DNA of 64,000 bases from Candidatus Bathyarchaeota archaeon (lineage in GTDB: Archaea; Thermoproteota; Bathyarchaeia; Bathyarchaeales; Bathycorpusculaceae): positions 354,180-418,179 of the forward strand of contig JAOZHT010000003.1 of the NCBI GenBank assembly GCA_026014735.1, given 5' to 3'. Each line of letters begins with the position of its first letter. Within the stretch, counting starts at the first letter, position 1. Both the position numbers and the translations under genes were made by a program. Below the pieces are notes generated by a model, which was not told where the DNA came from, did not search any database, and saw only the letters and a list, made by a program, of their open reading frames with translations. Shown here in pieces: positions 7,978-63,775 of this stretch.

Positions 7978-9693
7978 ATGGACAAAGCTCTCGAGATGGG
8001 TAAATCTTCAGCTACAGGTAGCTTTCATCTGCTCCTGGGCGTCGTGGGCTCCACCGTCATCATGGCTTTAGGCACCATCATCCTTAACATGCTGCTGCCT
8101 GCTTCAGACGTGGGGCTCTATGGCATAGCATTGATTCCTGCCTCCATGATCAACTTCTTTAGAGATTGGGGCGTAAACTCCGCTTTAACTAAAGAGATCG
8201 CTAGGCTAAGGCTACAGAATAAGAACGCTGAAATCCATGACGTCATCGTTTCCGGCGTTGTCTTCGAGATCATAAGCGGCGCGTTGCTGTCGCTGGTTTG
8301 CTTCGCGATTGCTTCACCCCTCGCGGTGCTTGTCAGCCCACAGGATGCTTCCCCACAAATTATCTCTGACTTAACACTCTACATTTCCGTTATGTCCCTC
8401 TCCGTGTTTGCTGGTGCAATAGCGGCTGCAGCTGGGGGAATCTTCGTCGGCTATGAACGCATGAAACTAAACAGCCTCACCCAAGTGCTTCAGGCAATCG
8501 TGAAAACCGCGCTTGGTCCATTGCTGGTGGTTTTAGGCTTCGGAGTTTTAGGCGCCATAACCGCTGCTATGGTTTCGATTCTTGCAGGCGGAATCATCAG
8601 CATCTCCCTTGTTTACTATGCGCTGTATAGGCCCATACGCGGCAGCAAAGTCGGCAAAGTAGACATAAAAGCCACCCTGAAGCCGATGCTGCGCTTCGGT
8701 CTGCCACTCACTATCTCCACAATTGCGGTGGGCGTTTTGCCGCTGATTTTTTCCCTATTCATGACAACCTTTGCAAATCAGGGCGATTTCAACGCGGGAT
8801 TGGATGTTGGCACCACGATGGGGAATTATTTTGCAGCCGCTAACTTCGCGGTTCTTTTAACCTTCGTTTCTTTCCCCGTTGCCACCGCGTTATTTCCAGT
8901 TTTCTCCAGGGTAGACCCTCAAGCTGAGCCGGCTTTGCTTAGGAAAGTTTTTGCTTCCTCAGTTAAGTATACGGCGCTGCTTTTGGTTCCCGCGACTTTG
9001 ATGCTTATCACGTTGGGAACGCCCCTTGTTAACACTCTTTATCCGGAAGGCGGCTTAATCAACTCGTTGTTTGTAGCCGGCGCCTCCCCTAAGTTCCCTG
9101 AGGCCCCTGTATTCTTGGCTTTTTCGGCGGTGGTTAACCTCTTTATTTTAGTCGGTAACATCAGCCTTTCCACTTTCCAGGCGGGCATAGGTAAAACCTG
9201 GCAGATAATGAAGCAGAGCCTTGTGACTTTAGGCATCGGGTTGCCCCTCGCCTACTTTTTAGTTGCCTTCTTCTACAGCTTCGGCGGCTCAGACCCTCAG
9301 GCATCCGCTTTTTATGCGGTAATCGGCGGCTTACTCGGCTCGATAATCGCAAATGTACCTGCCATGGTTTGGGGGCTGGTTTGGAGCTGGAAAAACTATA
9401 ATGTAAAAGCCGACTTTGGGGTTTCCGCAAAAATATTTTTTTCCTCGCTGCTGGCTTCGCTGGCTGCTTATGCGGTGATTAGCTTTTTGGTTTTGCCCTG
9501 GTGGATGATATTGGTGGCTGGGTTTGTGGTGTTTTTATTTGTTTACCTTGCGGCGGCTCCGCTTTTGGGCGCCATTAACCGCTATGACATCGATAATTTC
9601 CAATCTATGTTCGGTGGTTTGGGTGCGGTGTCGAAGATTCTTTATTTGCCGCTGCTTTTTATGCGTAAACTCTGCCGCAGCCGACCTGAATAG
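7978..9693 (+). CDS. Wzx/MATE-like polysaccharide flippase
   Basis: A 571-residue polytopic membrane protein of the polysaccharide biosynthesis (RfbX/Wzx, MOP superfamily) type. About 14 hydrophobic helices are visible. The start (GSFHLLLGVVGSTVIMALGTIILNMLL, then VGLYGIALIPASMINFFRDWGVNSALTKEIA) is typical of the family. Such proteins flip lipid-linked oligosaccharides from the cytoplasmic to the outer face of the membrane. It is the last gene of the sugar operon, the natural place for an exporter, and starts 21 bases after the oxidoreductase. A T-rich stretch lies after the stop. Confidence 0.88.
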   Translation: MDKALEMGKSSATGSFHLLLGVVGSTVIMALGTIILNMLLPASDVGLYGIALIPASMINFFRDWGVNSALTKEIARLRLQNKNAEIHDVIVSGVVFEIISGALLSLVCFAIASPLAVLVSPQDASPQIISDLTLYISVMSLSVFAGAIAAAAGGIFVGYERMKLNSLTQVLQAIVKTALGPLLVVLGFGVLGAITAAMVSILAGGIISISLVYYALYRPIRGSKVGKVDIKATLKPMLRFGLPLTISTIAVGVLPLIFSLFMTTFANQGDFNAGLDVGTTMGNYFAAANFAVLLTFVSFPVATALFPVFSRVDPQAEPALLRKVFASSVKYTALLLVPATLMLITLGTPLVNTLYPEGGLINSLFVAGASPKFPEAPVFLAFSAVVNLFILVGNISLSTFQAGIGKTWQIMKQSLVTLGIGLPLAYFLVAFFYSFGGSDPQASAFYAVIGGLLGSIIANVPAMVWGLVWSWKNYNVKADFGVSAKIFFSSLLASLAAYAVISFLVLPWWMILVAGFVVFLFVYLAAAPLLGAINRYDIDNFQSMFGGLGAVSKILYLPLLFMRKLCRSRPE

Positions 9694-48533: not shown

Positions 48534-49385
48534 TTAATCGTTGAGGTGTACTGAAATCGTATACTGGACCCTCCTGCAGCGAGGCGGCAGAGAGTAACTC
48601 AACCCCGCCCATGAAAACCGCTTTCTAGTACATTCCCATCCCCGGTAAAGCTTGCAACCCACGATATTTCCCAAACAGAACTCAAGCTCCCCTTTGCTGC
48701 TCTGCAAAGATGCCTTCTCAGCGGTCACTGGACTCCATGCCCCAATCCGGTTGCCCACACACATAGAACCTCTGCAATCGGCATATTTCTGGAAGATTCC
48801 TGATCCCTGCTCATTTAAAAAAAGAATCTCTCGGCACCCCTCCGCTTGAACCCGAGATAGATCCGCTTCAACTTCAACGGCGCTGCTACTACAGCGATAG
48901 GTTACATCAATTTCTCCTCGAGTGGCAACGGTTTGAAACTCCGTTTTTATGCCTAACTCGCGTATCTCCATTATTTTGTTGAACAACGGAGTAAGCTTTG
49001 GGTTATTGAGGTATAGCTGCTGAAACAGCTTTCTCACCGGCGAATAGAAGCCGTCATCGATGGGGGCTTTTCCGATTTTTTTGCGAGAAACCGTATCTAA
49101 AAAGAAGCTTTTCTTCAAAACCGCGACTGAACCAGAAAAATACGCAGCCACCTCAGCGTGGCCTGGAAAGAATGTTTTATCTGAATACTTCACGATTGGA
49201 ACCCCGAATCCCACGCCCTCCTCAACCAGTTCTCTGCCGTCCAAAAGCAGCACAAGACCCTTTTGTAGAGGCGCCGTCTCAAGAAACCTCGGGCGGCAAC
49301 CCCTGTAGAGACGCACCGATAGCCTCTCTGTGAGTGGCACTGTAACGGATTCGCCGAATTCTATGGGATTGTAAGATGCAGACAA
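48534..49385 (-). CDS. Uncharacterised protein
   Basis: A 283-residue soluble protein without a signal peptide or membrane helix. The N-terminal half (ESVTVPLTERLSVRLYRGCRPRFLETAPLQKGLVLLLDGRELVEEGVGFGVPIVKYSD) is beta-rich; the rest mixes strands and helices. I recognise no family. It is followed by a long gap with a diverged TATA/G-tract copy at 49418-49437. Confidence 0.6.
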   Translation of the reverse strand: MSASYNPIEFGESVTVPLTERLSVRLYRGCRPRFLETAPLQKGLVLLLDGRELVEEGVGFGVPIVKYSDKTFFPGHAEVAAYFSGSVAVLKKSFFLDTVSRKKIGKAPIDDGFYSPVRKLFQQLYLNNPKLTPLFNKIMEIRELGIKTEFQTVATRGEIDVTYRCSSSAVEVEADLSRVQAEGCREILFLNEQGSGIFQKYADCRGSMCVGNRIGAWSPVTAEKASLQSSKGELEFCLGNIVGCKLYRGWECTRKRFSWAGLSYSLPPRCRRVQYTISVHLND

Positions 49386-49557: not shown

Positions 49558-50712
49558 CTATTTGAGAAGCACTGTTTTCCTAAACAACTTTGCTTTGCCA
49601 AAGATGCCGATGAGTAAGCCGATGCCTAAAATCAGCGGAATCGCCATCAGCGGAAATTCGGGAACCCAGTTTGTGCCATTGAACGCCATGATTTCTCCGC
49701 CGTCGCCTACGACCCACGCTTGAATCGAGCCGACGTTAGAGCCATGAACCATCGAGACCGAATTAAGGTCGCCGCTTACAAGGTTAGAGTCACAGGACCA
49801 TTCGTTTCCGCTCCAGTACATCACCATTCCGTTGCTGCCACATGCCCATGCTGAAGTTGCGTTGCCAAGCGAAATCGAGTAGATAGTTGCGTTAAGTGTA
49901 CTCTCCGTTGTTCCTTCCATGCCGAAGAGGTAATTGTCCCAGACGCTCCAGGTTGTTCCGTTCAGATATAGGACTACGCCGTTGCCGCTGCCGTCGCCGC
50001 CTGCTGCCCAGCCGCTTGTGCTGGACGCCATCTGTATCGTGTAGAGGGCTATGTTAGTGGGGCTTGTCATGGTGTTCCAGGTGGTTCCAGTCCAATGCAG
50101 GATGGTTCCGCCGTCGCCGACTGCCCATGCATCAGCTGAGCCGTGGATCATGGATACGCTGCGTAGGTTGTTGGGGGAGACACCTTTGAATGCAAACCAG
50201 GTGTCACCGTTCCAGTTGAGGGCTAATCCGTTTGCGCCGACGATCCAGCCAACCTTGCCGTCTGAGCTTGCAGTGACTGAGTAGAGGGTGTTGTTGACTG
50301 TGTCGAAGTGGTCGGTGTATCCGCTATAGCTGATGCGGGTAAATGTCGTCCATTCGCCGTTATTGTATCGGACTATGACGCCGCTGTTAGAGTTTCCGCC
50401 CACTGCCCATCCGAAAGTTGAGTTAACGAAGAAGACACTGTAGAGATTCTGTGCGGTGGGGCTGCTAACTGTTGTCCAGCTGCTACCGTCCCAGCGAAGG
50501 ATGGTTCCGCCGTCGCCGACTGCCCACGCGTCGAGTTCGTTTAGGTTGTTGTTGGTGTCGGTTGTGTTGTTGATGACAAATACGCTGTTGAGGTTAACTG
50601 AGGTGGGGCTATCTACGCTGTTTATGTTTGTGGTTTGGGCGAGGGCGCCTGAAGTGGAGAAGCAAAGAAGCAAAATGCTTAGTGATAGCGCTAATTTGTA
50701 TGAAAACTTCAT
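49558..50712 (-). CDS. Secreted YCF48-like propeller protein with PEF-CTERM-like tail
   Basis: A 384-residue exported protein: signal peptide (YKLALSLSILLLCFSTSGALA), propeller blades with the repeat AWAVGDGGTIL and a W at the end (at least three copies, around residues 62-75, 195-208 and 335-345), and a C-terminal tripartite tail: VPEFPLMAIPLILGIGLLIG, then a basic end GKAKLFRKT. The PEF motif, helix and basic end fit a PEF-CTERM sorting signal cut by an archaeosortase, with later attachment to a lipid. No archaeosortase gene is in the window. The TATA/G-tract element at 50922-50941 is on the same strand 210 bases upstream of the start. Confidence 0.82.
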   Translation of the reverse strand: MKFSYKLALSLSILLLCFSTSGALAQTTNINSVDSPTSVNLNSVFVINNTTDTNNNLNELDAWAVGDGGTILRWDGSSWTTVSSPTAQNLYSVFFVNSTFGWAVGGNSNSGVIVRYNNGEWTTFTRISYSGYTDHFDTVNNTLYSVTASSDGKVGWIVGANGLALNWNGDTWFAFKGVSPNNLRSVSMIHGSADAWAVGDGGTILHWTGTTWNTMTSPTNIALYTIQMASSTSGWAAGGDGSGNGVVLYLNGTTWSVWDNYLFGMEGTTESTLNATIYSISLGNATSAWACGSNGMVMYWSGNEWSCDSNLVSGDLNSVSMVHGSNVGSIQAWVVGDGGEIMAFNGTNWVPEFPLMAIPLILGIGLLIGIFGKAKLFRKTVLLK

Positions 50713-51210
50713 TTGTTTTTTTCACCTGCCTAAAACTACAACCCTAAAAAACGAAGCCGCCGTAATATAGGTTTGTGACTGTATCACTATGCCTACTAAT
50801 AGGTGAATGCTGAGTCTACAGATGTGTGAACCTGAGTCTGCAGAGCCTTTTTGCCTCTTCATGTATCGATACGGCGGTTCCTGAGGCGCCTAGACTGCAA
50901 ATTGCTGCTGCATCCAACAGCCTACCCCCCCTCTATTTATAGTGACTCGCCAAACCGTCTGCTGCTCCACTCTGCTGTCTCTCCCTTATAGAGGAAATGG
51001 GCTTCTCTTGTGCGGTGTGGCAGATTGCATGTGTAGACATGTTTCAGCTCTTTTTTCTCCTATGAGCCAAGATTATCTGGCAGCGAAGCAGAAACGGTTT
51101 TGCACCAGCGGTTGACTTTGCCTTCGGGGCTGTCTCAACAGCAAATTTATACTTGCCGGGTTAGTTTTTTTGTCTGTTTTAAACCTCACACCCAAGCGGC
51201 AATATTCTCT
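50713..51210. other. Intergenic region with shared upstream box and TATA/G-tract
   Basis: No gene supported. On the minus strand GCAGCAGACG (50956-50965), 14 bases, then the TATA/G-tract element (50922-50941), giving a leader of about 190 bases for the YCF48-like gene. Near 50995 lies a further TATA-like TTATAGAGG. The frame of the GT39-like gene is open from 51100, but its first codons are not protein-like. Confidence 0.55.
50922..50941 (-). repeat. TATA/G-tract element upstream of YCF48-like gene
   Basis: Minus-strand TATAAATAGAGGGGGGGTAG, identical to the copy at 27132-27151. GCAGCAGACG occurs 14 bases upstream (50956-50965), almost the same distance as in the copy at 16912 (15 bases). 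Confidence 0.65.
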
Positions 51211-52887
51211 ATGACTAACTATACAAAGAGACGTGAAGGCTGCATGTATTCTAAATGGACAGGGACCTCAGAATTCAAGTTATCATCTAGGGTCTATTCG
51301 CCTTCTCTTCCAAAAAGGATCAAAGCCTTCTTTCTTAATCCACTCAGCCTTCTTCTCATTCTAACAATAGCACTTTGTGCATTCTTGCGCTTCTTTAACA
51401 TTGCTAACACACCATTATGGTATGTTGATGAAGGAACAAACTTAGACATAGCTTGGAATTTAGCACACGGGCGAATGCAGATGTTCGCGCTTTCCTACCC
51501 ATTTGTACCCCATCCACCCCTTTCTTACGTGTTTTCTGCCGTGGCATTAGAGATTTTTGGTTATAGCCTCCCTGTTGCAAGAATGGTAAACGCAGTCTAT
51601 GGAGTCATTACCGCTGTTCTGTTGTATTATACTGGGGTTGCTTTGTATAACAAAAAGGTAGGTTTGCTTGCAAGCTTTTTATTCTCCATCTTTCCGCTAG
51701 CTATTCAATTCAATCGTATGAATTTCAGTTATAACCTGCTACAAGTATTCGCGGTGTTTACGCTTCTTTCGTGTACATTTTATTTTAGAACAAAAAATAG
51801 CAAATGGTTTTATGGCGCAGCAGTTGGCGCAGGTGCCGCAAGTGTCACTAATCCAATTGGGATAGGTTTGATTCTTGGTTTACTTGTCTTTGTTTTTATC
51901 GATAGAAACATTAAATCAACGGTGAAATTAGTATCTGCTGCCTTAGGCGTTTTTGCTCTTTACCCAATAAGTATGTTGGCTCTCCAATCGGGCGCTTTTC
52001 TATCAGATGTAGAGCATTACTTCCTCTTTCATGCGGCGCCCGTTGTTGCGAGCGGTTCAGGTTTATCTTTTTTCTCACGTGCGACAGAAATAATATCCTA
52101 TTCCCCATGGTTTGCCCTTGGCTCAATTGGTTTACTAATGTACCCCTTATTTAGCAGACGAAAAAAGGAAGGCATTCTTGTTCTTGGATTATCCATATGC
52201 CTTTTTTTGTTTACAGCTGAATTCTATAGTTCAAATGCTCCTCGGTTCTTAGTTCAGTTATTACCCTTCGCTGCCTTAGGGGTTTCGTTTGTAATCTGGT
52301 TAGTGCCTGAAACCATAATCAAATTTGTTCAAATAAAGCTGAGTAAGTATTTAATATCTAAAAGAAGCACCAAATTAGCGGTTTTAGGGTTGTGGATCTG
52401 CGTTTTTTCGCTTGTATCGGTTCCTCTAGCTCAAATAGCAGTCTATGATGGCACTTCGGTTTTCACGGGTATTCATACCTCTTTGGATTATCAGAATACT
52501 CAATCTTCCGCTGACGCCTATAAAATGGCTGAATATGTCAATAGCAGGGTTGATCCAAATGATTTTGTCATCGCTTCCCCTCATGTTGCTTGGCTTATTC
52601 ATGCCAATATTTCAGGTCTCAACATAGCGCTATCGATGGACCAACGGGAGGAGCTTCGACCCAGCTTTACAGATGACCGGTATGTTTTTAATTGCTCTGT
52701 TCGAAATGCTAAGTATTTGGTTTTCGATAACTTCACTGGTTCCTTCTATATTGCACAACCTGTCTATCAAGAATTCCTGACTGATGTTTTGGCAAATTGG
52801 ACCTCAGTCTATCAACAGGGCGAATATATTGTTTTTTTGAATCCTGCATTTAATTCAACCACTCGAGAAGGCGCTGATTTGCCATGA
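51211..52887 (+). CDS. GT39-like membrane glycosyltransferase (ArnT/PMT type)
   Basis: A polytopic protein of about 558 residues with 11-13 helices. After the first helix (LSLLLILTIALCAFLRFFNI) comes PLWYVDEGTNLDIAWNLAHGR, with the acidic pair after the first membrane helix that is the catalytic mark of GT39/ArnT enzymes. Then VPHPPLSYVFSAVAL matches the family. These use lipid-phosphate sugars to glycosylate proteins or lipids outside the cell. ATG 51211 or 51244 may be the start. Sequence is AT-richer than flanking genes. Its TGA overlaps the start of the next gene (ATGA at 52884-52887). Confidence 0.8.
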   Translation: MTNYTKRREGCMYSKWTGTSEFKLSSRVYSPSLPKRIKAFFLNPLSLLLILTIALCAFLRFFNIANTPLWYVDEGTNLDIAWNLAHGRMQMFALSYPFVPHPPLSYVFSAVALEIFGYSLPVARMVNAVYGVITAVLLYYTGVALYNKKVGLLASFLFSIFPLAIQFNRMNFSYNLLQVFAVFTLLSCTFYFRTKNSKWFYGAAVGAGAASVTNPIGIGLILGLLVFVFIDRNIKSTVKLVSAALGVFALYPISMLALQSGAFLSDVEHYFLFHAAPVVASGSGLSFFSRATEIISYSPWFALGSIGLLMYPLFSRRKKEGILVLGLSICLFLFTAEFYSSNAPRFLVQLLPFAALGVSFVIWLVPETIIKFVQIKLSKYLISKRSTKLAVLGLWICVFSLVSVPLAQIAVYDGTSVFTGIHTSLDYQNTQSSADAYKMAEYVNSRVDPNDFVIASPHVAWLIHANISGLNIALSMDQREELRPSFTDDRYVFNCSVRNAKYLVFDNFTGSFYIAQPVYQEFLTDVLANWTSVYQQGEYIVFLNPAFNSTTREGADLP

Positions 52888-55319
52888 AGGTTCTTTTAAC
52901 TAACGTCTGCGACCTCTACAATAAAGGTGAAGTAGCTCTTGTTACAACAGTGGCCAAAAATTTTCCGCAATCCGAGTTAATGATAGCCCCTCTATTTTCC
53001 TTCATTGATTCTGCGCTATGCACAAAATTAAAAATTAGTGTGTGGGGCCGCCTCAAGCCCTTGCCTAAGCCGCTGTTATTAGTATGGGTTACCCTTGTTT
53101 TGTTAAGAGCTGGTGCATGGTCATTTTTAAATAAGGTCTGCAGGGTGAACATGGCTTACTTGTTAAACAGGGAATTACGCGCTTATTCCCGTGCTGACTT
53201 AATCGTTGATCTTGGCGGCGATACTTTCAGCGATGATTATGGTTTTCTCGCTTCCTGCATGCATTGCTATAGCCTATTTTTAGCCATTCTACTTGGAAAA
53301 CCATACTTTGTGTGCTCGCAAACCATCGGCCCTTTTAAAACTCCGTTGACTAGGTTTTTTGCTCGGTTCATTTTGGCAAGGGCCCAGATGATTACGGTTA
53401 GAGAAGGCTTAACTCAAAAATATTTGCTTAATAACCTCAAACTTGCCCTAAGCAATCGCCTAAAACTTGTCCCTGACCTTGCATTTCTTCTTGAACCTGA
53501 AAACCCAATTGAAATAAAAAAATTGCTTTTGCGAAAAGGAATACGACAAGGCGATGTGCCGATCATTATTGTAAATCCCAGCAATCTTATTTGGCGTTAT
53601 ATGTTTCCACAGTTAAGCCTTGAAGAGAGATATGCTCAATATACGCGGATCATGGCACGGATGGTTGATGATTTGCCCCCGGAGGCTGCGGTGGTACTTG
53701 TTCCTCACGTTACTGCTCGCAAAAGTGAAGCTGGAAAATACAAAAACGTCAATGATACGGCTGCTATTTTTTCTATCTACCAAGAAATCAAAAACAAATC
53801 AAGAGTTCACCTAATAACCGAGGACTTAGATCCTAGGGAAATTAAAGGCATCATTAAAGCAGCGGATCTATTAATTGGTTGCAGAATGCATGCGGTTATC
53901 GCTGCTTTGTCCTCTGGGACTCCCACTGTGGCTCTATCCTATAGTAACAAGACAATGGGGATTATAGGTGAGTTACTGGGGCTTAGGGATATAATTGTTA
54001 ATGTTCGAGATCAAAATGACTCCGCTCTAATCAACGATGAATTATCCTCCAAAATCACGTTCATTTGGAAACAGAGGGCCAGAATATCCCAGCAACTCCA
54101 AAGTGAAAGTCATCGCTGGCGTAAGCAAGCTACCGTAAATATTCAGCTGATAAAGAAACTCTACATCTTAAACACAATAGATGCTCTTAGGTCCAGAAGC
54201 ACATGCAACGGATGTGGCAACTGCGTTTTTGTGTGCCCTAATGGTGCGTTAACAGCAAAACCCGCTCAGGAAGGCTTCCGTATTAGATTGAATTTTAGCT
54301 CCTGCATTGGTTGTGGTTTATGTCTGCGTAGCTGCCCAAAAATATATAGCGCCCAAAATGTAAAACCTCAAAATGTTCTGCTTGGCAAATACGACCAATG
54401 TTGGGTCGGTCAAGCCAACGATGATTTAAGAAAAAACGTCACCTCAGGCGGTATAGTTACAGGGTTACTAGTGAATGCTCTAAAGGAGGCAGAAATTGAT
54501 GGGGCAATAGTTACAGAAAGTCAAGGAACTAAAACAGTGAGCGTTATTGCCTGCACCAAAAAAGAGGTTCTTTCATCTTCCGGAACAAAATATTGTCCAG
54601 TCGACTTCAGTGCTACTCTAAAGGAGATTAGCGGTAAACCTGGAAAGTTCGCGTTCGTAGGATTGCCCTGCCAAATTGCAGCTATTAGAAAACTCGAGGA
54701 ATCCAATGTTGAATTAAAACAGAAAATTGTTTTACACATAGGACTATTCTGTAGCCACAATGTTAGCGCAAATGCCACAAAGCTGCTTCTAGAGAGCATG
54801 GGCATTTCTTACCCGGATGTAACCGACCTATGTTATCGTGCAAGAAAGGGTGGTGTTACAGGAATGTCTGTTCGTACAAAAAGCGGCCGAGAAAGATTTA
54901 TTCCCTCAAAAAAATATTGGACCCGTTTCTTTAACTATTTCTTTATCCCTTGGGCTTGCCTGATGTGCCACGACCTGACATCTGAACAAGCTGACATTTC
55001 AGTTGGCGATGCATGGCTTCCAGAGTACAAAAAAGCAGGCGTCCATCACTGTATATTTATAACCCGTGATTCTCGGAGCTCAACCCTTGTTCAATCAGCC
55101 ATAAATAACAACGTACTAACCGCTAAAAGAGTTGATGCTGCAACGGTTGTCAAGTCGCAAAAAATGTATCTGCACATTAAGAAACGGCAAACTTGTAGTC
55201 CGGGGTTGCTTGCTTTAAGCCACTTGGCGCTTATGCATATAGGGTACGTTATTTCTATCCGGTTTAGAATGTATTCTGCAGTTAAAGTTTTCCTGCAAAT
55301 ACTCAGGGTGTCACATTAA
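52884..55319 (+). CDS. Fusion: polysaccharide pyruvyltransferase plus FrhB-like iron-sulfur domain
   Basis: An 811-residue two-domain protein. Residues 1-400 are a polysaccharide pyruvyl transferase (LIVDLGGDTFSDDYGF, CSQTIGPFKTPLTRFF, IKAADLLIGCRMHAVIAALSSGTP), which adds a pyruvate ketal to a sugar. Residues 440-485 hold two 4Fe-4S motifs, CNGCGNCVFVCP and CIGCGLCLRSCP. Residues 495-760 match the FrhB/FdhB C-terminal family (KNVTSGGIVTGLLV, FVGLPCQIAAIRKL, GLFCSHNVSANATKLLLESMG, ACLMCHDLTSEQADISVGDAW). In bacteria these two are neighbouring genes in polysaccharide clusters; here they are one chain with no stop or frameshift. The gene overlaps the GT39 gene and is AT-rich like it. What the redox part does in pyruvylation is unknown. 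Confidence 0.9.
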   Translation: MKVLLTNVCDLYNKGEVALVTTVAKNFPQSELMIAPLFSFIDSALCTKLKISVWGRLKPLPKPLLLVWVTLVLLRAGAWSFLNKVCRVNMAYLLNRELRAYSRADLIVDLGGDTFSDDYGFLASCMHCYSLFLAILLGKPYFVCSQTIGPFKTPLTRFFARFILARAQMITVREGLTQKYLLNNLKLALSNRLKLVPDLAFLLEPENPIEIKKLLLRKGIRQGDVPIIIVNPSNLIWRYMFPQLSLEERYAQYTRIMARMVDDLPPEAAVVLVPHVTARKSEAGKYKNVNDTAAIFSIYQEIKNKSRVHLITEDLDPREIKGIIKAADLLIGCRMHAVIAALSSGTPTVALSYSNKTMGIIGELLGLRDIIVNVRDQNDSALINDELSSKITFIWKQRARISQQLQSESHRWRKQATVNIQLIKKLYILNTIDALRSRSTCNGCGNCVFVCPNGALTAKPAQEGFRIRLNFSSCIGCGLCLRSCPKIYSAQNVKPQNVLLGKYDQCWVGQANDDLRKNVTSGGIVTGLLVNALKEAEIDGAIVTESQGTKTVSVIACTKKEVLSSSGTKYCPVDFSATLKEISGKPGKFAFVGLPCQIAAIRKLEESNVELKQKIVLHIGLFCSHNVSANATKLLLESMGISYPDVTDLCYRARKGGVTGMSVRTKSGRERFIPSKKYWTRFFNYFFIPWACLMCHDLTSEQADISVGDAWLPEYKKAGVHHCIFITRDSRSSTLVQSAINNNVLTAKRVDAATVVKSQKMYLHIKKRQTCSPGLLALSHLALMHIGYVISIRFRMYSAVKVFLQILRVSH

Positions 55320-55369: not shown

Positions 55370-56113
55370 TCAGAGTTTTTGCGTGGAACCCTGACTAATG
55401 ATTATTTCTTGGTTGTTACCTCTAAAAGGTATTTCTGCACTTCCCACTGCTGCTAAAAGACCAATATACATAAAGAATAATCCGTTTAAAGTAAACAAAG
55501 TCCCCGCCAAGTATTCTGAGAAAGTTGTAGTGTTAAATACATAAATGGGGGATAGCGCTTCCCCGTCGAGGCCCAGCCTGTAACCCACGATAACTGGCGC
55601 TATATAGCTAAACAGGAGCCCAAACAAAACCGCTGTCAACGCAAAAACGCAGCCTATTACCCCTCGCAGTTTCCAGTTGCCCCTTGTGGGAAGACCAAAC
55701 CCTAAGCCTCCTAAAATTCCGCATACCGCAAGAAGACACAGGGGGCATTCACCGACGGCTGGCGCCGCTAAATTCATGATGGCGCCTGATGCGCAGACGC
55801 CTAAGAGGCCGCCGAGTATGCCGAAGTGTAATCGAGATATTTTCTGGGTATTTTGCGTTCCGCTTGAGAAATCGGCAACTGGCTGGTCCGGCGGATTTAG
55901 GTTTCCTTTTTCATATTTGCCTAATGCAATCAATCCGAGGCCCAGCAACCCCCCCGCAGTCAGCGCGGCGGCAAAAGTGTTTGTCATCCAGATGCTTCCA
56001 TCTAAAAACAGCGATGGCGTATTCGCTAATATGACAAAGAAAACAAGTGACACTAACCAAACCTTCACGAAGGCTTCCAGTGAGCTATGTAACCTTTTAA
56101 GCTGAGTTGACAT
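55370..56113 (-). CDS. Six-helix membrane protein, unknown
   Basis: A 247-residue protein with six or seven helices. A small motif GECPLCLLAVCGILGG in the middle contains three cysteines. The C-terminal helices (YLAGTLFTLNGLFFMYIGLLAAVGSA) are well defined. No family recognised. It is convergent with the pyruvyltransferase fusion gene. Confidence 0.58.
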   Translation of the reverse strand: MSTQLKRLHSSLEAFVKVWLVSLVFFVILANTPSLFLDGSIWMTNTFAAALTAGGLLGLGLIALGKYEKGNLNPPDQPVADFSSGTQNTQKISRLHFGILGGLLGVCASGAIMNLAAPAVGECPLCLLAVCGILGGLGFGLPTRGNWKLRGVIGCVFALTAVLFGLLFSYIAPVIVGYRLGLDGEALSPIYVFNTTTFSEYLAGTLFTLNGLFFMYIGLLAAVGSAEIPFRGNNQEIIISQGSTQKL

Positions 56114-56381
56114 GTCTGGTTCACTTGCTTGAAGTATAGAACCTGATTTGTAGTCAGCAGATTAAGAGGTTATGAATTGACAATCCAGATTAGCCTTCCA
56201 GTTGCCACCGCCATGCCGTTTACGCTGCCGATAGCTCTGTTTACTCAATGTTTTTCTGTGTGTATCTTGGGGTAACGCACAAGGGCAATAGTACATTTTG
56301 CCGGTATATGCCTCTCCAGATGGTTGCCGGATGCAATACACAAACCTCACCTACCCTGCGGAGGCAAACACGTCCTCATCG

Positions 56382-57248
56382 ATGAAGGTAGGTGTAGCTA
56401 TCCCCACATACAATGAAAAAGCAAATCTGGCGCCCCTCATCGAAAACTTATCCCGCGTCTTTGAAGCCGCCGGGGTTGCACTTCGAATCGTAATCGTCGA
56501 TGACAACAGCCCAGACGGTACCGGCGAATTAGCAGACAGCATAGCCCAGAAAAGGCGCAATGTCTCAGTTATTCATAGATCCGGAAAGCTTGGTTTAGGC
56601 AGCGCCTACAAAGCCGCTTTTAAGCTTCTCCTCAACGACCCCCAAGTGGCGGTGGTGATGGAGATGGATGCGGATTTTTCGCATCAACCCAAATATATTC
56701 CTAGTCTGCTATCCAAAATCGAGGAGGGCTACGACGTCGCAATCGGCTCCCGCTACGTCAGAGGCGGCGGCATCGACAAGGAATGGACGGCTATGCGGCG
56801 CCTCATAAGCAAATCAGCAAACGTTTTGGCGGTTATGTTTGCGGGTTTAAACGTTAAAGATGCCACCGGCGGCTTCCGCGCCTACGACTCCTACGCATTA
56901 AAAAGCATCGACCTCTCCAAAGTGCGGACCAACGGCTACGCCTTCCAGATAGATATGCTTTCGCAGTGCAGAAAAGTAGGATGCGAAATAGCTGAGGTCC
57001 CCATTGTATTCTATGAGCGGAAACATGGGAAATCCAAGCTTGCCCGCACCTCGATGCTGGAGTTCCTCAAGACGTTGGAGAGCGCTTTCTTCTGCCGCGT
57101 CTTCTCGTTGGCCGCGGTTGCAGTGCAGTCCTCGGTTATCACGGTTAGCAACGCGCTTTGGATCGGCATTAAGCCTCTGCAGGCAGCCATCAAGCATGCT
57201 AACGAGCAGAATCTTTTGGGTAAGCGGGAGAGGGCTTTCTCCAGGTGA
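56382..57248 (+). CDS. Dolichol-phosphate mannosyltransferase-type GT2 (DPM1-like)
   Basis: A 288-residue GT2 enzyme of the polyprenol-phosphate mannose or glucose synthase type. Motifs: VAIPTYNEKANLAPLIENL, IVIVDDNSPDGTGELAD, MEMDADFSHQPKYIPSLL (metal-binding DAD), VAIGSRYVRGG, and DATGGFRAYDSYALKSID. A single hydrophobic C-terminal stretch is weak, so it probably lies on the cytoplasmic face of the membrane. It transfers a sugar from a nucleotide to dolichol phosphate, supplying the GT39-like and GT-C-like proteins of the window. Start ATG 56382 follows GGAGG at 56360-56364. TGA at 57248 is followed by one base and then the next gene. Confidence 0.88.
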   Translation: MKVGVAIPTYNEKANLAPLIENLSRVFEAAGVALRIVIVDDNSPDGTGELADSIAQKRRNVSVIHRSGKLGLGSAYKAAFKLLLNDPQVAVVMEMDADFSHQPKYIPSLLSKIEEGYDVAIGSRYVRGGGIDKEWTAMRRLISKSANVLAVMFAGLNVKDATGGFRAYDSYALKSIDLSKVRTNGYAFQIDMLSQCRKVGCEIAEVPIVFYERKHGKSKLARTSMLEFLKTLESAFFCRVFSLAAVAVQSSVITVSNALWIGIKPLQAAIKHANEQNLLGKRERAFSR

Positions 57249-57249
57249 T

Positions 57250-58275
57250 ATGATGACGACTATACTTTCTAAGTCTAAGTCAAAATATCCCTATATTGAG
57301 CTTAAAGCGAAGTCTTTTGCGGTTCCAAAGGTCAGCTTGATGGTTGGAATCGCTGTTTCTAACGAGGAGCAGAACATCGGGGCGTTGCTGGAGAACCTGA
57401 CTGCTTCGGCGCCGCCTGAAGTTGAAACAATCTGCGTTGTCTCCTCGGGCTCCACTGACCAAACCAACAGCATCATCCGGAGCTTCGCTGAAGATGACGC
57501 TCGAATACAGTTAATTATTGAGCCTGAACGGACCGGTAAAGCATCCGCCCTTAACCTGCTTTTGGAGCAATCACAGAACTATGACTACATGGTCTACACG
57601 GGCGGCGACAACATACCCTGCCGCGAAGCCCTAAACCACCTGTTAGCCGCCATCAGATCCCAAGACGTCGACATCGTAGGTGCCCATCCTCGTCCAGTCG
57701 ACGACCCACATTGCTTTATGGGCTTCTGCACGCATCTGCTCTGGAACCTCCACCATGACGCTTCGCTTGGAAAACCCAAAATCAGCGGGGAACTCATGGT
57801 TTTTAAGTCCCGAATCATACGGGAGCTTCCCCCCGCAATAATTAACGATGACGCATACATTCAGGCGCTGGGCGAAATGAAGAAGTACAAAATCTCCTAT
57901 TGCCCCCAAGCCGAAGTTCTCCTCAAAGGCCCCTCCAATGTGCATGATTTTTTGGCGCAGCGCAGGCGTGTGTTTGTGGGCCATCAGCAACTGGAGTTTT
58001 TGATCGGCAAAAAAGTTTCCACTATGAAGGTGCCCTCCTGGAAAAGCATCCTTAAGGCTTGTCCCTACCGTGGTTTGAAGGGCAGAGTGTACGCGGCAGG
58101 CTTTGTTTTCTTTCAGGCTGTGGCTTTCCTGTTGGCTAAATGGGATTTTGCCCGCCATAACTTGCCGGTGAAGTGGACGATGGCTAAGTCTACTAAGAAC
58201 CTGTTTGATTCAAAAGAGACGTCGCTGCTTGCAGGTATTGCGCCTGTCGGATTAGATGGGTCTTTAGAGCAGTAA
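57250..58275 (+). CDS. Glycosyltransferase family 2
   Basis: A 341-residue GT2 enzyme. Motifs: VGIAVSNEEQNIGALLENL, TICVVSSGSTDQT, and VYTGGDNIPCREALNHLL, where GGDN stands where DxD is usual. Later IINDDAYIQALGEMKKYKI (acid-base region) and the QxxRW-like LAQRRRVFVGHQQLEFL. One hydrophobic stretch near the end (AAGFVFFQAVAFLLAKW). ATG-ATG start at 57250, one base after the preceding stop. It lies between DPM synthase and the pilus operon and may act on the same glycan. Confidence 0.83.
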   Translation: MMTTILSKSKSKYPYIELKAKSFAVPKVSLMVGIAVSNEEQNIGALLENLTASAPPEVETICVVSSGSTDQTNSIIRSFAEDDARIQLIIEPERTGKASALNLLLEQSQNYDYMVYTGGDNIPCREALNHLLAAIRSQDVDIVGAHPRPVDDPHCFMGFCTHLLWNLHHDASLGKPKISGELMVFKSRIIRELPPAIINDDAYIQALGEMKKYKISYCPQAEVLLKGPSNVHDFLAQRRRVFVGHQQLEFLIGKKVSTMKVPSWKSILKACPYRGLKGRVYAAGFVFFQAVAFLLAKWDFARHNLPVKWTMAKSTKNLFDSKETSLLAGIAPVGLDGSLEQ

Positions 58276-58622
58276 AACAGTAGCGGCGAAGGCGAAGGAT
58301 CTAACCACAAGCATCCAAGTTTACGGTGAACTTAAGCTCCCCTGCATGCCAGTGACTCACATATTGTTCTGCTTGTGGTTTGCTCCACAACCAACCTGCA
58401 GTCCGCGGCAGGCTCCAAAACAAAAAAGCAGCCGCCCACAAACCCCGGGGGTAGTAGTTGTTTATAGAAGGGTTTCTCCCACAACAACTAAGGAAAAACA
58501 AATCGATCAAAATTTGAACCTCCTCTGCCGTCCAAATGCCTGCTTGCTTTTGTTGTATCTTTTTTTTACGCACACATTCAGATATTCAAAATTCGCGTAC
58601 TTGGTTTTCAAGTGAAAATGAA
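58276..58622. other. Intergenic region with two inverted repeats before the pilin gene
   Basis: No gene supported. AACCACAAGC (58303-58312) and GCTTGTGGTT (58371-58380) are inverted copies 58 bases apart. TAGTTGTT (58455-58462) and AACAACTA (58483-58490) are a second inverted pair with a 20-base loop. Near 58540-58570 is a T-rich run. The pilin promoter must lie in the last 100 bases, but no strong TATA box can be pinned down. Confidence 0.55.
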
Positions 58623-59183
58623 ATGAAAAACATACTAAAGAATCGTTTGGCTCTAAGTACAGTCGTAACCACCTTGATTATCCTCGTTGTTTCAGTGCTA
58701 CTCGCAGGCGTAGTCAGCTACTTCGCAATCAACGTCACCAGCACTCGCGTTCAAGAAGAAGACCTTCACCTTACCAAACAACACGTTTGGTATGACGCAG
58801 CAACCGGAAAATCTGAAGCAGCCCTTATGATCATTAATACTGGCGGTCGAGACGTTGTTCTTGACAAATTGACGTGCCGCGGACAGGAAAAAGCCTGGAC
58901 TGGCATCTTCTATGCAACGACCCAACAATCAATATCTGACGACCTAAAGTGGGTTACCGATCTAGCAAAAGACAAAGTAGCGGTTGGATTAACCCTAAAG
59001 GATACAAAAACTGACTTGACACTCAAATCCGGCGAAACAATGGTTATCTACATGACTTCACCAGACAGCATCAGCATCAACGACATCGGCTTAACCGTTG
59101 CACTCACAGTGTTCACATCACAAGCGATGTACTACAAAGAGACAAACGTCCAAGCATACGTAGCAGATTCAGGCAGCAGCTAA
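58623..59183 (+). CDS. Archaeal type IV pilin (class III prepilin)
   Basis: A 186-residue pilin-like protein. The N-terminus KNILKNRLALSTVVTTLIIL, continuing VVSVLLAGVVSYFAI, is a class III prepilin signal: short basic part, then the helix that forms the filament core. The rest is a beta-rich domain. ATG at 58623; the first 29 codons of the longer frame are not coding-like. A T-rich tract at about 59215-59237 follows. It is probably the main filament subunit because it has its own promoter region and terminator; the prepilin peptidase is not in this window. Confidence 0.82.
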   Translation: MKNILKNRLALSTVVTTLIILVVSVLLAGVVSYFAINVTSTRVQEEDLHLTKQHVWYDAATGKSEAALMIINTGGRDVVLDKLTCRGQEKAWTGIFYATTQQSISDDLKWVTDLAKDKVAVGLTLKDTKTDLTLKSGETMVIYMTSPDSISINDIGLTVALTVFTSQAMYYKETNVQAYVADSGSS

Positions 59184-59379
59184 GACTAACCATAATCCCC
59201 CAAACCCCCCACAACTTTTCTTTATTTTATTTTTTTAACTCAAACCTGCTTAGAGTATTTTCCGCACGCCAATCTTTTTGGCCTTGATTTGTGTTGGCAT
59301 CTGTAAATTGTTTTACGCACAAACGGCTTAATCCCGTCTCCATGTTTCTGTATACCAATGCAACACGGAGAGGATACCT

Positions 59380-60216
59380 TTGAGGAAACAATTGTTCAAT
59401 CATGGTTTGCGTAGGCTGAGGCGCTCCAAGTTAGCTTTAGCTTTGCCTGCCACGTTCCTTATCCTCTTCGTATCGACCCTGGGCATCGTTGCCTTCACAT
59501 ACTACTTCTCAGTGGAACGCATCAACACACAGGGCCAAACACTCAAAGTTTCCACGGCAAAAACCAATCTCCTCGGCCTAAACGAAGCCATAGTGTCTAC
59601 GCTTTGGCAGCCCGGAGCCTCCTCCACCTACAGGATCACTGACTCTGGCGGAAAAACCTGCATCGAACCCAGCGATAACCCCCTAAGCGTTAGCCTCAGC
59701 GGCGGCGGCATCGATGAAACCGTCTTTAATGCCTCCGTCGGCAGAGTCATCTATGAATTGCCCTATCAGGCCTCCTCGGAAACCGGAATGTACCTTCGGG
59801 GCGATGAGCGCAGTGTAACTAACCAGAGTGGCGCCTCAATCAGCCAGGTCTGCATCGAGAACGGCGAGGAGCACCCTGAAATCCAGTTGCGTTACCGTCC
59901 CTCCGTAACCGCTGCATCCTCGGGCGTCGAAGGGGGACGAGCCGTCAACACGGTGCGCATCTACATCGTTAACCTCAACGGCTCCGACCCGATGGCATTT
60001 ATGGGAACGCTGCCGCTTCAAGCCACCTGCCAAGACACTCAGTTAACCACTAAAACCTACAGCGTCCCCGCTTCCACAGCAAGCTTAACCGTGTCTGCTT
60101 CACTGGACGGCAAAGTCGGCGTGGTGGCGGTGCCTATCTCCAGTACAGTGCAGGGCGCCCTCATCCGTGTGGAGCTTGTTGTCTGTAGTGTTTGTCTTGA
60201 GAGGTGGATTGTGTAG
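59380..60216 (+). CDS. Pilin-like secreted protein
   Basis: A 278-residue protein: basic N-terminus (RKQLFNHGLRRLRRSK), a helix (LALALPATFLILFVSTLGIVAFTYYF), then a long outer domain with many polar residues and few cysteines. It has the shape of a minor pilin. TTG start at 59380. Stop TAG overlaps the GTG start of the next pilin-like gene by one base (60216). Confidence 0.68.
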   Translation: MRKQLFNHGLRRLRRSKLALALPATFLILFVSTLGIVAFTYYFSVERINTQGQTLKVSTAKTNLLGLNEAIVSTLWQPGASSTYRITDSGGKTCIEPSDNPLSVSLSGGGIDETVFNASVGRVIYELPYQASSETGMYLRGDERSVTNQSGASISQVCIENGEEHPEIQLRYRPSVTAASSGVEGGRAVNTVRIYIVNLNGSDPMAFMGTLPLQATCQDTQLTTKTYSVPASTASLTVSASLDGKVGVVAVPISSTVQGALIRVELVVCSVCLERWIV

Positions 60217-60662
60217 TGCCAACGATTGTTCCTAATTACGTGTATTCGCTGTTTGCTGCCCTTGTGGTGGGCGCCATAGTGGTTTATGCCTGCGCAACGG
60301 CGGTTGGGGCAATGCAGAGCCGCGCCCAAACTCAGCAGCTGACAAACATCGAGCAGTACGTCGCCGCCGAGGCGCTTACCCTGCTATCCCACACTAACCA
60401 AAATAACCAAACCTCCAGCTGCTACCTTGACTTGCCCTGCTCCGTGGGCAATAAGCCATACTGGATAAGCCTGGAAACTGACGCTTCGGGTGCCTGGGTG
60501 CATTCTGGCTTTGGCTCATACGTGCAGTCGGTGAGCTATGGGGTTTATGTGCCCGCTGAGGCGGAGGCGTCCGGCAGCTTTGTCGGCGGCTCAGGGCGAC
60601 CGATGCTTCAATGCCGCTTCGAGAATCAAGTTGCAACTTTAACGTTAACGGTGAATGATTAG
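60216..60662 (+). CDS. Minor pilin-like protein
   Basis: A 148-residue protein: short N-terminus, one helix (SLFAALVVGAIVVYACATAVGAM), and an outer domain with two nearby cysteines (SSCYLDLPC). GTG at 60216 overlaps the stop of the preceding gene by one base. It is followed directly by the pilus ATPase gene. No clear peptidase cleavage motif is visible, so the pilin call rests on layout and context. Confidence 0.62.
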   Translation: MPTIVPNYVYSLFAALVVGAIVVYACATAVGAMQSRAQTQQLTNIEQYVAAEALTLLSHTNQNNQTSSCYLDLPCSVGNKPYWISLETDASGAWVHSGFGSYVQSVSYGVYVPAEAEASGSFVGGSGRPMLQCRFENQVATLTLTVND

Positions 60663-60663
60663 T

Positions 60664-62241
60664 ATGCCAAAGTTAGGTAAGAAGAAACAGGAAGAAGTCG
60701 TAGTTACTCAGCAGACCCCCGATGAGGAGCTTGTTGCCTACCTGGGAATTCAGGGCTACCAGGTGCCCGAAGGCTACACGCAGATTGAAAGCTACCCCCT
60801 TAATCCCCCCTACTCGTACGCCTGGGTTTTCCAAGATGACTCCGAAGGCAGCTACTTCTACGTCGTGGACGAGTTGCCTATGTCACGGGAGGAACGTGAA
60901 GCCTACAAGCGCCTAAAAAGCATCCTTGAATATGAACTTAAAGCCCCCAGCGTCGATGAGTCACTGGTTGAATCCTTCCATCGGCAGCTACCCGCGATTC
61001 TGGATGCACATAAGCAGGCTTTTGGCGGCATCAACCAGGTGGGGCTGCGCAAACTCAACTATTACCTCGAGAAAGACCTCATCGGCTACGGCAAAATCGA
61101 CGGGCTCATCTGCGACCCCTACATCGAAGACATCAGCTGCCTGGGCCTCAACAAACCCGTATACATTTACCACCGCAAATACAGCAACGCCCGCACCAAC
61201 ATAATCTTCACTGACGAGGAAGAACTCGATGACTTCATAACACGCATCGTCCACCGCCAGGGCAAACACGTCAGCATAGCCCATCCCATCGTGGACCTCA
61301 CTTTACCGGGCAAGCACCGACTAGCCGTTTCGTTTGGCAAGGAAACCACGCCGGCGGGCACCAGCTTCACCATCAGAAAATTCAAGGAAGACCCCCTCAC
61401 CATCGTCGACTTAATCATGAATGAAACCATCGATGAATCTATCGCTGCCTACCTCTGGATGCTTATGGAGAACAAGATGTCAGTGATGGTTGTGGGCCCC
61501 ACGGGTGCAGGAAAAACCACGGCGTTAAACGCCATTGCCTGCCTTGTCCGCCCAGACTACAAGATGATATCGGTCGAGGAAGTTCAGGAAGTTAATTTGC
61601 CCCAGGAGAACTGGGTATCAACCATTGCCCGCACGGGTTTTGGCGGAGACAGCGACGGCGAAGTCACCCTCTATGACCTCATCAAATCCGCTGTGCGGCA
61701 TCGCCCAACGATGATTTTGGTGGGCGAAATCAGGGGTGAAGAAGCATATGTGCTGTTTCAGGCTTTAGCCACAGGACACGGCGGCTTATGCACCATGCAC
61801 GCAGATGATGTGGAAACCGTGGTGAAGCGGTTGACGCAGCCGCCCATGAATATTCCCCAGACGATTCTTTCGCTGATGAACTGCGTCATCGTGGTTAAGC
61901 AGGTTAGCAGCGGATTCAACATCCATCAACGCAAAGGGTCCGTGCGCAAATTCGTTAAAGTCGCCGAGATCGAAAGCAACGGCGCCTCCCAGGAAGTCTT
62001 CAACTGGAATCCCTCATCGGATACCTTCCAATGCAGCGTGGACCAAAGTTACCTCTTCGCCAAGATTGCCCAATCCGTTGATGCACCCGTCAGCGTTGTA
62101 ATGCAGGAGTTTGAGCGTCGCAAACGGATTCTACTCAACATGGTGGAGCATAACATGCGTGACTTCCGAAGCGTGCATAAAGCCCTTAACAGTTCACTGA
62201 ACCTTGAGGCGCTTGAGGCTCAACAGGAAGAGGCTGAGTAA
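60664..62241 (+). CDS. Type IV pilus assembly ATPase (TadA/ArlI/VirB11 family)
   Basis: A 525-residue hexameric secretion ATPase. Walker A VGPTGAGKTTALNA at about residues 277-290, Walker B MILVGEIRGEEAY near 349, with the conserved Asp and His boxes between and after (ISVEEVQEVNLPQENW, ATGHGGLCTMHADDVETVVKRL). The N-terminal 250 residues are the usual winged region. It powers pilus assembly. ATG 60664 lies just after the upstream stop; an ATG at 60655 would overlap. It is not joined to archaellum genes, so adhesion or aggregation pili are more likely than swimming. Confidence 0.93.
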   Translation: MPKLGKKKQEEVVVTQQTPDEELVAYLGIQGYQVPEGYTQIESYPLNPPYSYAWVFQDDSEGSYFYVVDELPMSREEREAYKRLKSILEYELKAPSVDESLVESFHRQLPAILDAHKQAFGGINQVGLRKLNYYLEKDLIGYGKIDGLICDPYIEDISCLGLNKPVYIYHRKYSNARTNIIFTDEEELDDFITRIVHRQGKHVSIAHPIVDLTLPGKHRLAVSFGKETTPAGTSFTIRKFKEDPLTIVDLIMNETIDESIAAYLWMLMENKMSVMVVGPTGAGKTTALNAIACLVRPDYKMISVEEVQEVNLPQENWVSTIARTGFGGDSDGEVTLYDLIKSAVRHRPTMILVGEIRGEEAYVLFQALATGHGGLCTMHADDVETVVKRLTQPPMNIPQTILSLMNCVIVVKQVSSGFNIHQRKGSVRKFVKVAEIESNGASQEVFNWNPSSDTFQCSVDQSYLFAKIAQSVDAPVSVVMQEFERRKRILLNMVEHNMRDFRSVHKALNSSLNLEALEAQQEEAE

Positions 62242-62242
62242 A

Positions 62243-63775
62243 ATGAAGGCGGCACCTCGCAGTGGAGCATCAGGCAAAGTTTTCGGTTTACTCAACAGGG
62301 CAACCAGTGAGGAACGCGAAAAAACCGAGGCGGAGCTTCCCTTCGCCGTCATGATTTTTACGCTTATGGCTGCCAGCGGCATCTCGCCCTATGACAGCTG
62401 GAAGAAGATGCGTAAACTCAGCTTTCTGCCAATCTTCAAAAAAGAAGCCGATGAGGTTGTGCGGCAGGTTGAGGTTTTAGGCAAGGATCCCTTGACGGTT
62501 ATGTATCAGCGGGCGGAGGTTACGCAGTCTAAGCTTTACCGCAACTTTTTAGGCGGCTTTGTTTCGTCGGTGCGTAGCGGCGGCAAACTGGTTGATTACA
62601 TGAAAAGCCAGCTTAAATCCATCTTTGAGTTGCGCTACATTAACCTTAACCGCTCCATAGAGCGCATCGCCGCGTTGGTGGAGGCTTACTCGGTTATGCT
62701 TATTGTGGTCTTGTGCACCTACATCCTCTTTGTGGTTTTTTCGTCGTCGAGCGTTATGGATTTGCTGTCCAGCACCTCCATCACGATTTCGCCTGCCATG
62801 TCCTACATCATAGCCTTCATCATTATGCCTGTGATGTCGGGTTTTTTCATCATGATAGCGCATAACATGCAGCGCAGCGCGTTTCCCGATTTAAAAGACC
62901 TCTACAGGCGAGCCTTAATGTTCATCATCCCTGCCTTCGTGGTTATTGGGCTGTTTGCGTCTGTTAGTGCGCTGCAGGAGGCGATAAAGCCGCTGGGGCT
63001 CCCCGAAGTCGCCACAATCGCCCTTGTAGGTGCCACCACGCCGCTTGCCATCCAGTATTACCGTATAGCAAAAATAAACTATAACGCCGAGGAATCCATA
63101 CCCAGCTTCATACGGGACATAACTGAATCCCAAAAAACCGGGTTATCCCCCGAGAAAAGCATCGTGCAAGCCACCAAACGCAAAGACTACGGTTCCTTCA
63201 CAAAGTTTCTGGAGTTAATCCGCAGCCAAATCGAATGGGGCATCCCTCTGCGTAAAACCTTCGAAAACATACGTAAGGATATCCGCAGCTGGTTTGTCGT
63301 GGTTAACTTCGCCATGATGGTGGAGACGCTGGAGATCGGCGGAAACTCGATTCAGTCCCTTGAAATCCTCAGTGAGTACAGCGAAAAAGAGCGTGAACTG
63401 CAGGTTAACCGGCGGGCGCTGCTTAAACCCTATATTCTTTTGGCTTTCATGTGGAGCGCACTTATCGCCGTCACCACAACCATCGTGGCGTTGACAACCA
63501 CCATGATGACTGGCATCGTCAGCTCAGACCTTTCCTCTATTGCAACCATAGCCATGCAGGATCAGCTTAAGCTGTTCTCGGTGGGCATCATCATTCAATG
63601 CTGGATTTCAGGGTTCTTCATCGGCAAAATCAGCGAAGGCAACTTCGGCGCAGGCTTCAAAATCGCTGCTATGCTATCCGCCACCGCCTATCTGTCTTTG
63701 GTGCTCTCGCAGGTGCTGCTTGCAGGCGCCTTCACAATCGTGCCCATCAACCCGGGTGGAGGAGGGTTCGGGTAA
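62243..63775 (+). CDS. Type IV pilus membrane platform protein (TadC/ArlJ family)
   Basis: A 510-residue protein with two T2SSF (GspF-type) repeats: the first half (FAVMIFTLMAASGISPYDSW, KLYRNFLGGFVSSVRSGG) and the second (GLSPEKSIVQATKRKDYG, FAMMVETLEIGGNSIQSLEIL), each followed by helices. The ATPase docks here to drive pilin assembly. ATG 62243, one base after the TAA of the ATPase gene. The stop overlaps the start of the next gene (TAATG). Confidence 0.9.
   Translation: MKAAPRSGASGKVFGLLNRATSEEREKTEAELPFAVMIFTLMAASGISPYDSWKKMRKLSFLPIFKKEADEVVRQVEVLGKDPLTVMYQRAEVTQSKLYRNFLGGFVSSVRSGGKLVDYMKSQLKSIFELRYINLNRSIERIAALVEAYSVMLIVVLCTYILFVVFSSSSVMDLLSSTSITISPAMSYIIAFIIMPVMSGFFIMIAHNMQRSAFPDLKDLYRRALMFIIPAFVVIGLFASVSALQEAIKPLGLPEVATIALVGATTPLAIQYYRIAKINYNAEESIPSFIRDITESQKTGLSPEKSIVQATKRKDYGSFTKFLELIRSQIEWGIPLRKTFENIRKDIRSWFVVVNFAMMVETLEIGGNSIQSLEILSEYSEKERELQVNRRALLKPYILLAFMWSALIAVTTTIVALTTTMMTGIVSSDLSSIATIAMQDQLKLFSVGIIIQCWISGFFIGKISEGNFGAGFKIAAMLSATAYLSLVLSQVLLAGAFTIVPINPGGGGFG

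Follow-up and report, generated by a model that had tools for sequence, protein, structure and literature searches.

Transfer of a pyruvyl group from phosphoenolpyruvate (PEP) needs no electrons, and the reduction of an enolpyruvyl group to a lactyl group by a flavin is the reaction of MurB. In the synthesis of coenzyme F420 a flavin mononucleotide (FMN) domain likewise reduces a PEP-derived enolpyruvyl group to lactyl (PMC6450877). Among proteins of the FrhB fold, F420-dependent sulfite reductase and 7-hydroxymethyl chlorophyll a reductase (HCAR) reduce their substrates with flavin and iron-sulfur (Fe-S) clusters. In many genomes a pyruvyltransferase gene and an FrhB-type gene form a pair annotated as F420 hydrogenase and pyruvyl transferase, names that are silent on any joint function. 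The present analysis concerns a 64,000-nucleotide stretch of the genome of a Candidatus Bathyarchaeota archaeon (assembly GCA_026014735.1, contig JAOZHT010000003.1, positions 354,180 to 418,179 of the forward strand; hereafter the window), in which one gene at 52884-55319 on the plus strand joins a polysaccharide pyruvyltransferase to a redox module of the FrhB type. The fusion is best explained as a bifunctional glycan-decorating enzyme derived from two genes that usually lie side by side in surface-polysaccharide clusters, with a redox half that probably completes what the pyruvate-adding half begins.

Domain composition and conserved residues

The frame at 52884-55319 is open from ATG to stop over 811 codons and is intact in the whole genome as G000:C3:407063-409495. 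Pfam searches with the 811-residue protein placed PS_pyruv_trans (PF04230) at residues 90-355 (5e-36; 125 bits against a gathering score of 25.3), two Fer4 domains at residues 439-486 above the curated cut-offs, and, both above the gathering score, FrhB_FdhB_N at residues 507-580 (4e-18, 65.7 bits) and FrhB_FdhB_C at residues 588-751 (4e-29, 102 bits). A single-chain fusion had been proposed in a first-pass annotation of this DNA, which was confirmed by the unbroken frame together with the Pfam domains of both halves. In window coordinates, all on the plus strand, the pyruvyltransferase half (residues 1-427; Pfam, alignment and fold match) occupies 52884-54164, the junction (residues 428-440; frame check and AlphaFold2) 54165-54203, the two 4Fe-4S motifs (Pfam and alignment) 54204-54335, the FrhB_FdhB_N domain (Pfam) 54402-54623 and the FrhB_FdhB_C domain (Pfam and alignment) 54645-55136.

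The first half has a GT-B-like fold, its Foldseek matches being GT-B enzymes, and a PEP site consisting of R173, R334, H336 and K356. Among 46 aligned pyruvyltransferases, R173 and H336 were present in all 46, while the positions of R334 and K356 held either arginine or lysine in all sequences except one each. All four residues are common to Escherichia coli WcaK and to the second pyruvyltransferase of this genome, which is encoded at locus L149 (3287-4447; G000:C1:833349-834203) with no redox partner in the 8.5 kb examined. The spacing of R334, H336 and K356 is that of R306, H308 and K328 in CsaB, the equivalence to CsaB being by spacing; mutation of CsaB R148, H308 and K328 shows their role in PEP use (PMC10435577). 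In this comparison R173 takes the place of CsaB R148, whereas the loop residue R207 of CsaB is not clearly conserved. The score against the CsaB equivalog was 88 bits (cut-off 213) and against WcaK 76 bits (cut-off 399), and a PDB sequence search with this half gave no match.

The redox half keeps 12 cysteines, enough for three clusters: the eight of ferredoxin type (C441, C444, C447 and C451; C474, C477, C480 and C484) and a further four in the FrhB_FdhB_C domain (C596, C623, C692 and C695), which form a probable third 4Fe-4S site and align, together with other invariant columns, with F420-dependent sulfite reductase and other FrhB proteins. The same domain carries conserved residues of the flavin module. 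Foldseek matched this half to F420-reducing modules (Frh, Fsr) and to HCAR. It was not identified as FrhB proper: the score was 93 bits against the frhB equivalog cut-off of 331.5 (FpoF: 71 against 475), and the neighbours of the gene are glycosyltransferases and pilus genes, with no hydrogenase or dehydrogenase subunits alongside. As judged by profile searches, both halves are members of known Pfam families and of none of the named equivalogs tested, and both, by alignment, retain their catalytic apparatus.

Integrity of the junction

The pyruvyltransferase homology ends at about residue 427 and the first Fe-S cysteine is residue 441, with no ATG, GTG or TTG in frame between them. Production of two complete proteins by an ordinary internal start is therefore unlikely, since a complete redox protein would require a rare start codon; an internal start, which the first-pass annotation had named as a possible refutation, was accordingly rejected and the single-chain reading stands. 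In the AlphaFold2 model (mean predicted local distance difference test score 88, predicted template modelling score 0.76) the C-terminal helix of the first half (residues 398-437) continues into the junction and links the first half to the second; the confidence is lower near residues 431-440, so that the relative placement of the halves is uncertain. The two halves have G+C fractions of 0.416 and 0.427 compared to 0.495 for the window, and this uniform, low composition suggests a single piece whose parts were acquired together.

An out-of-frame TAG ATG is present at 54178-54183, right at the junction of the halves, and may be either a relic of an ancestral adjacent-gene junction or a product of chance. 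Its exact position, as well as the stop carried by the nearest relatives at the same point, would suit a true state of two adjacent genes, with the single frame being an assembly or sequencing artefact or being translated as two proteins. Such a state is very improbable: two compensating indels would be needed to obtain two separate genes with this TAG ATG, the halves have no usual in-frame start between them and the same base composition, the same gene pair is fused in other genomes, and AlphaFold2 runs one long helix through the junction.

Distribution of the gene pair and of other fusions

Within the same class, a strong match was obtained in 21 of 257 genomes, with both halves in one open frame only in the genome of the window. 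Two genomes of the same genus (G085 and G096) carry the pair with the order and frame of the window gene and one stop codon between the genes, the junction being TGA ATG in G085 and TAA followed by ATG 18 nucleotides further on in G096; elsewhere among the relatives the two genes either neighbor each other in a different arrangement or are separated. Five unfused pairs (L035, with the stop at 8850-8852, and L039, L040, L043 and L061) share one frame, interrupted between the genes by exactly one stop, which is TGA in all five. Very little change would thus be needed for fusion of pairs that are in frame and one stop apart. Such in-frame pairs were read through their single TGA in alignments A4 and A5.

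A wider survey, in which 84,980 species genomes were scanned with a profile weighted to the redox half, produced 80 archaeal and bacterial loci. A pyruvyltransferase gene was located within 1 kb, in either order, at 58 of them: 31 on the same strand within 100 nucleotides, 12 tail to tail within 100 nucleotides, 4 fused and 11 further off, so that both genes were within 100 nucleotides or fused at 47 of the 80 loci. The number 58 is a lower bound, because the detector missed two known partners (L139 and L141). At generic FrhB loci from the same phylum, a pyruvyltransferase was found within about 1.5 kb in 1 of 23, a comparison biased by the presence of the pyruvyltransferase half in the query and by differing flanks. 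The earlier statement that the partners are usually separate adjacent genes agrees with the pairing at 58 of 80 loci, and the fusion in the window is the extreme case of a widespread gene pair. The annotated pair is present in polysaccharide clusters of Klebsiella aerogenes, Dinoroseobacter, Bacteroides, Parabacteroides and Pseudobutyrivibrio, and also on pSymB of Sinorhizobium meliloti (L141). The Klebsiella aerogenes locus (L139) is a 13-kb plasmid, p35_D, with a flippase-like gene, the redox/pyruvyltransferase pair and two glycosyltransferases, and represents a mobile piece of a polysaccharide cluster. Closely similar pairs were observed in a WOR-3 bacterium bin (L046) and in a Methanoperedenaceae archaeon (L074), pointing to either cross-domain transfer or misbinning.

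Four further single-chain fusions were found among the 80 loci, two in each order. L036 (Freyarchaeota, 901 residues) and L038 (WOR-3, 895 residues) have the same order as the window protein, while L080 and L085 (910 residues each), which form one clade and come from Clostridiales and Deltaproteobacteria bins, have the reverse order. The halves of the latter two (L080 4895-7624 and L085 4246-6975) are 85% and 78% identical across differently labelled bins, which indicates recent transfer or a binning error. The idea of a unique fusion was therefore rejected. The search for the same domain order, suggested in the first-pass annotation, was answered by L036 and L038, with L080 and L085 reversed; none of these was found described in the literature searched, where no paper on the pair or the fusion was encountered, which is not proof of absence.

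Parsimony reconstruction gave four fusion origins both on the redox tree and on the pyruvyltransferase tree, with a weak backbone. The window protein and L038 are on long branches, and no fused relative was a close sister of the window protein on either tree; on the redox tree, a sister position of L038 or L036 to the window protein was not rejected by the approximately unbiased test. The reverse-order clade is placed with full support among relatives whose genes are separate, which secures a minimum of two independent fusions; since the test allows a shared origin of the window fusion with L036 or L038, only the reverse-order clade is firmly independent. That fusion has occurred repeatedly, and in both orders, is strong comparative evidence for the halves working as one unit, and the fusion offers a single protein for testing the joint function. 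The same observations bear on a chance read-through of neighbouring genes with no function beyond ordinary operon partnership. One mutation would suffice for it, given the several unfused pairs whose genes share a frame and are parted by one stop, yet the redox half has no start of its own and still keeps all catalytic residues, and fusion of this pair has happened repeatedly, in either order, making such an origin quite improbable.

Proposed function

The recurrence of the pair across archaea and bacteria in both orders, and its fusion more than once in both orders, place the redox half very likely on the pyruvyl pathway, and the two halves are highly likely to serve one and the same glycan modification. 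From the earlier suggestion that the redox part acts directly with the pyruvylating part, a common pathway can thus be retained as very likely. Because the transfer of pyruvyl from PEP consumes no electrons, the most likely target of the conserved redox partner is either the acceptor sugar or the group transferred to it. The latter option fits the precedent of F420 synthesis and MurB, the reduction of an organic substrate by HCAR and the correlation with Klebsiella capsules described below.

By analogy with these systems, we tentatively favor the transfer of an enolpyruvyl group that a flavin then reduces, giving a lactyl ether. The N-terminal half would transfer an enolpyruvyl unit from PEP to a sugar hydroxyl, and the enol ether, instead of being closed to the cyclic pyruvate ketal, would be handed to the C-terminal half. 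There, reduced F420 or ferredoxin would supply electrons that pass through the Fe-S clusters to the flavin, and the C=C bond would be reduced, giving a stable lactyl (1-carboxyethyl) ether. Overall this would be the MurA/MurB logic of muramic acid, achieved with unrelated folds. A CofD-like gene is present in the same genome (L145 1375-2349; G000:C2:544614-545414), indicating that the archaeon probably makes F420, which is thus plausible as the electron donor; the pair also occurs in bacteria not known to make F420. In general terms, PF04230-FrhB pairs and fusions may possibly, at somewhat less than even chance, be a widespread means, with no relation to MurA/MurB, by which archaea and bacteria make lactyl-ether sugars for their surface glycans, with the window protein uniting both steps and channeling the unstable enolpyruvyl intermediate.

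A Klebsiella capsule survey reports pyruvyltransferase genes and no pyruvate for capsules K8, K22, K37 and K66, and lists one "coenzyme F420 hydrogenase" and two nitroreductases, which its main text assigns to no locus (PMC4616057). The K22 capsule contains 4-O-[(S)-1-carboxyethyl]-glucuronic acid, according to a title cited in PMC3857182. Among the papers examined on K loci of Klebsiella and on O-antigen clusters of E. coli, none assigned the F420-hydrogenase-like gene or the nitroreductases to a type. The Klebsiella aerogenes pair, sought in 5,426 complete E. coli genomes with the aim of reaching O antigens with known lactyl sugars, had no match there. The K37 and K66 capsules are presumably lactylated. 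By analogy, the Klebsiella correlation supports the lactyl route indirectly; if true, this route would explain capsule types with a pyruvyltransferase gene but without pyruvate and would provide a genetic marker for lactylated glycans, the archaeal synthesis of which is unexplored to our knowledge.

Several results weigh against the lactyl route. None of the loci with the pair could be linked to a glycan of solved structure. The PEP-site residues are the same as in ketal formers, so nothing in the first half indicates a stop at the enol ether, and for the nearest solved relatives of the redox half the usual role is electron exchange with F420, not a reaction on sugars. Finally, 22 of the 80 redox homologues had no pyruvyltransferase detected within 1 kb, by a detector that missed the partners at L139 and L141.

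The resemblance of the PEP site to that of ketal formers would also agree with an ordinary ketal added by the first half, with the redox half altering the sugar or another part of the glycan (for example, by deoxygenation or by reduction of a keto or unsaturated sugar) and the fusion merely coupling two decorations of one acceptor. HCAR-type relatives take oxygen off their substrate, and the glycan clusters that hold the pair also contain glycosyltransferases, flippase and Wzy genes, both of which suit such a division of labor; unrelated decorations, however, would not be expected to stay so tightly linked in phyla whose glycans differ greatly, in all orientations and with fusions of either order, and we regard this reading as somewhat less likely than the lactyl route. 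A redox half without a substrate of its own, serving as an electron-transfer or redox-sensing module which gates pyruvylation, is improbable: pyruvyl transfer from PEP has no use for electrons, and neither WcaK nor the second pyruvyltransferase of this genome has such a partner nearby, even though the redox half retains every one of its three cluster sites as well as the flavin module and the FrhB modules of methanogens are mainly electron-transfer units. The lactyl route remains our preferred explanation.

Genomic context

The setting of the fusion gene is surface glycosylation. Its start overlaps the stop of the upstream gene (ATGA) in an operon-like manner, the latter (51100-52887, plus strand; Pfam and equivalog search) encoding a PMT_2/GT39-like membrane glycosyltransferase. 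Downstream, on the plus strand, are a family 2 glycosyltransferase at 56298-57248 (Pfam and equivalog search), nearest to AglJ and dolichyl-phosphate hexose transferases while scoring under their cut-offs, and a second one at 57004-58275 (Pfam), whose listed start is probably too early. Three proteins without a Pfam match flank the glycan genes (48534-49385, 49558-50712 and, on the minus strand, 55370-56113). The region 58536-63775 encodes pilin-like proteins, a T2SSE ATPase and a T2SSF membrane protein, that is, an archaeal type IV pilus-like operon beside the glycosyltransferases.

Comparison with known systems

The ketal pyruvyltransferases CsaB, WcaK and Pvg1p belong to the same PF04230 family as the first half, which has the PEP arginine, Arg-x-His and lysine positions in common with WcaK and, by spacing, with CsaB; in contrast to them, the fusion is a single chain with a redox module and falls short of the equivalog thresholds for CsaB and WcaK. 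In its domains (PF04422/PF04432 with a 2x4Fe-4S head) and its 12 cluster cysteines the redox half agrees with FrhB, with FpoF and with the N-terminal module of F420-dependent sulfite reductase, which are its best PDB matches in sequence and fold, whereas the fusion is far under the FrhB and FpoF equivalog cut-offs and is situated among glycan genes. HCAR is likewise an Fe-S flavoenzyme of the FrhB fold with an organic substrate, but its substrate is different and it has no fused transferase. With MurA/MurB and FbiD/FbiA/FbiB (PMC6801904, PMC6450877) the likeness is confined to the proposed two-step logic, the folds being unrelated and homology being neither found nor claimed. Further counterparts are the fusions L036, L038, L080 and L085, which at 895-910 residues have both halves in one frame like the window protein, with the order reversed in L080 and L085.

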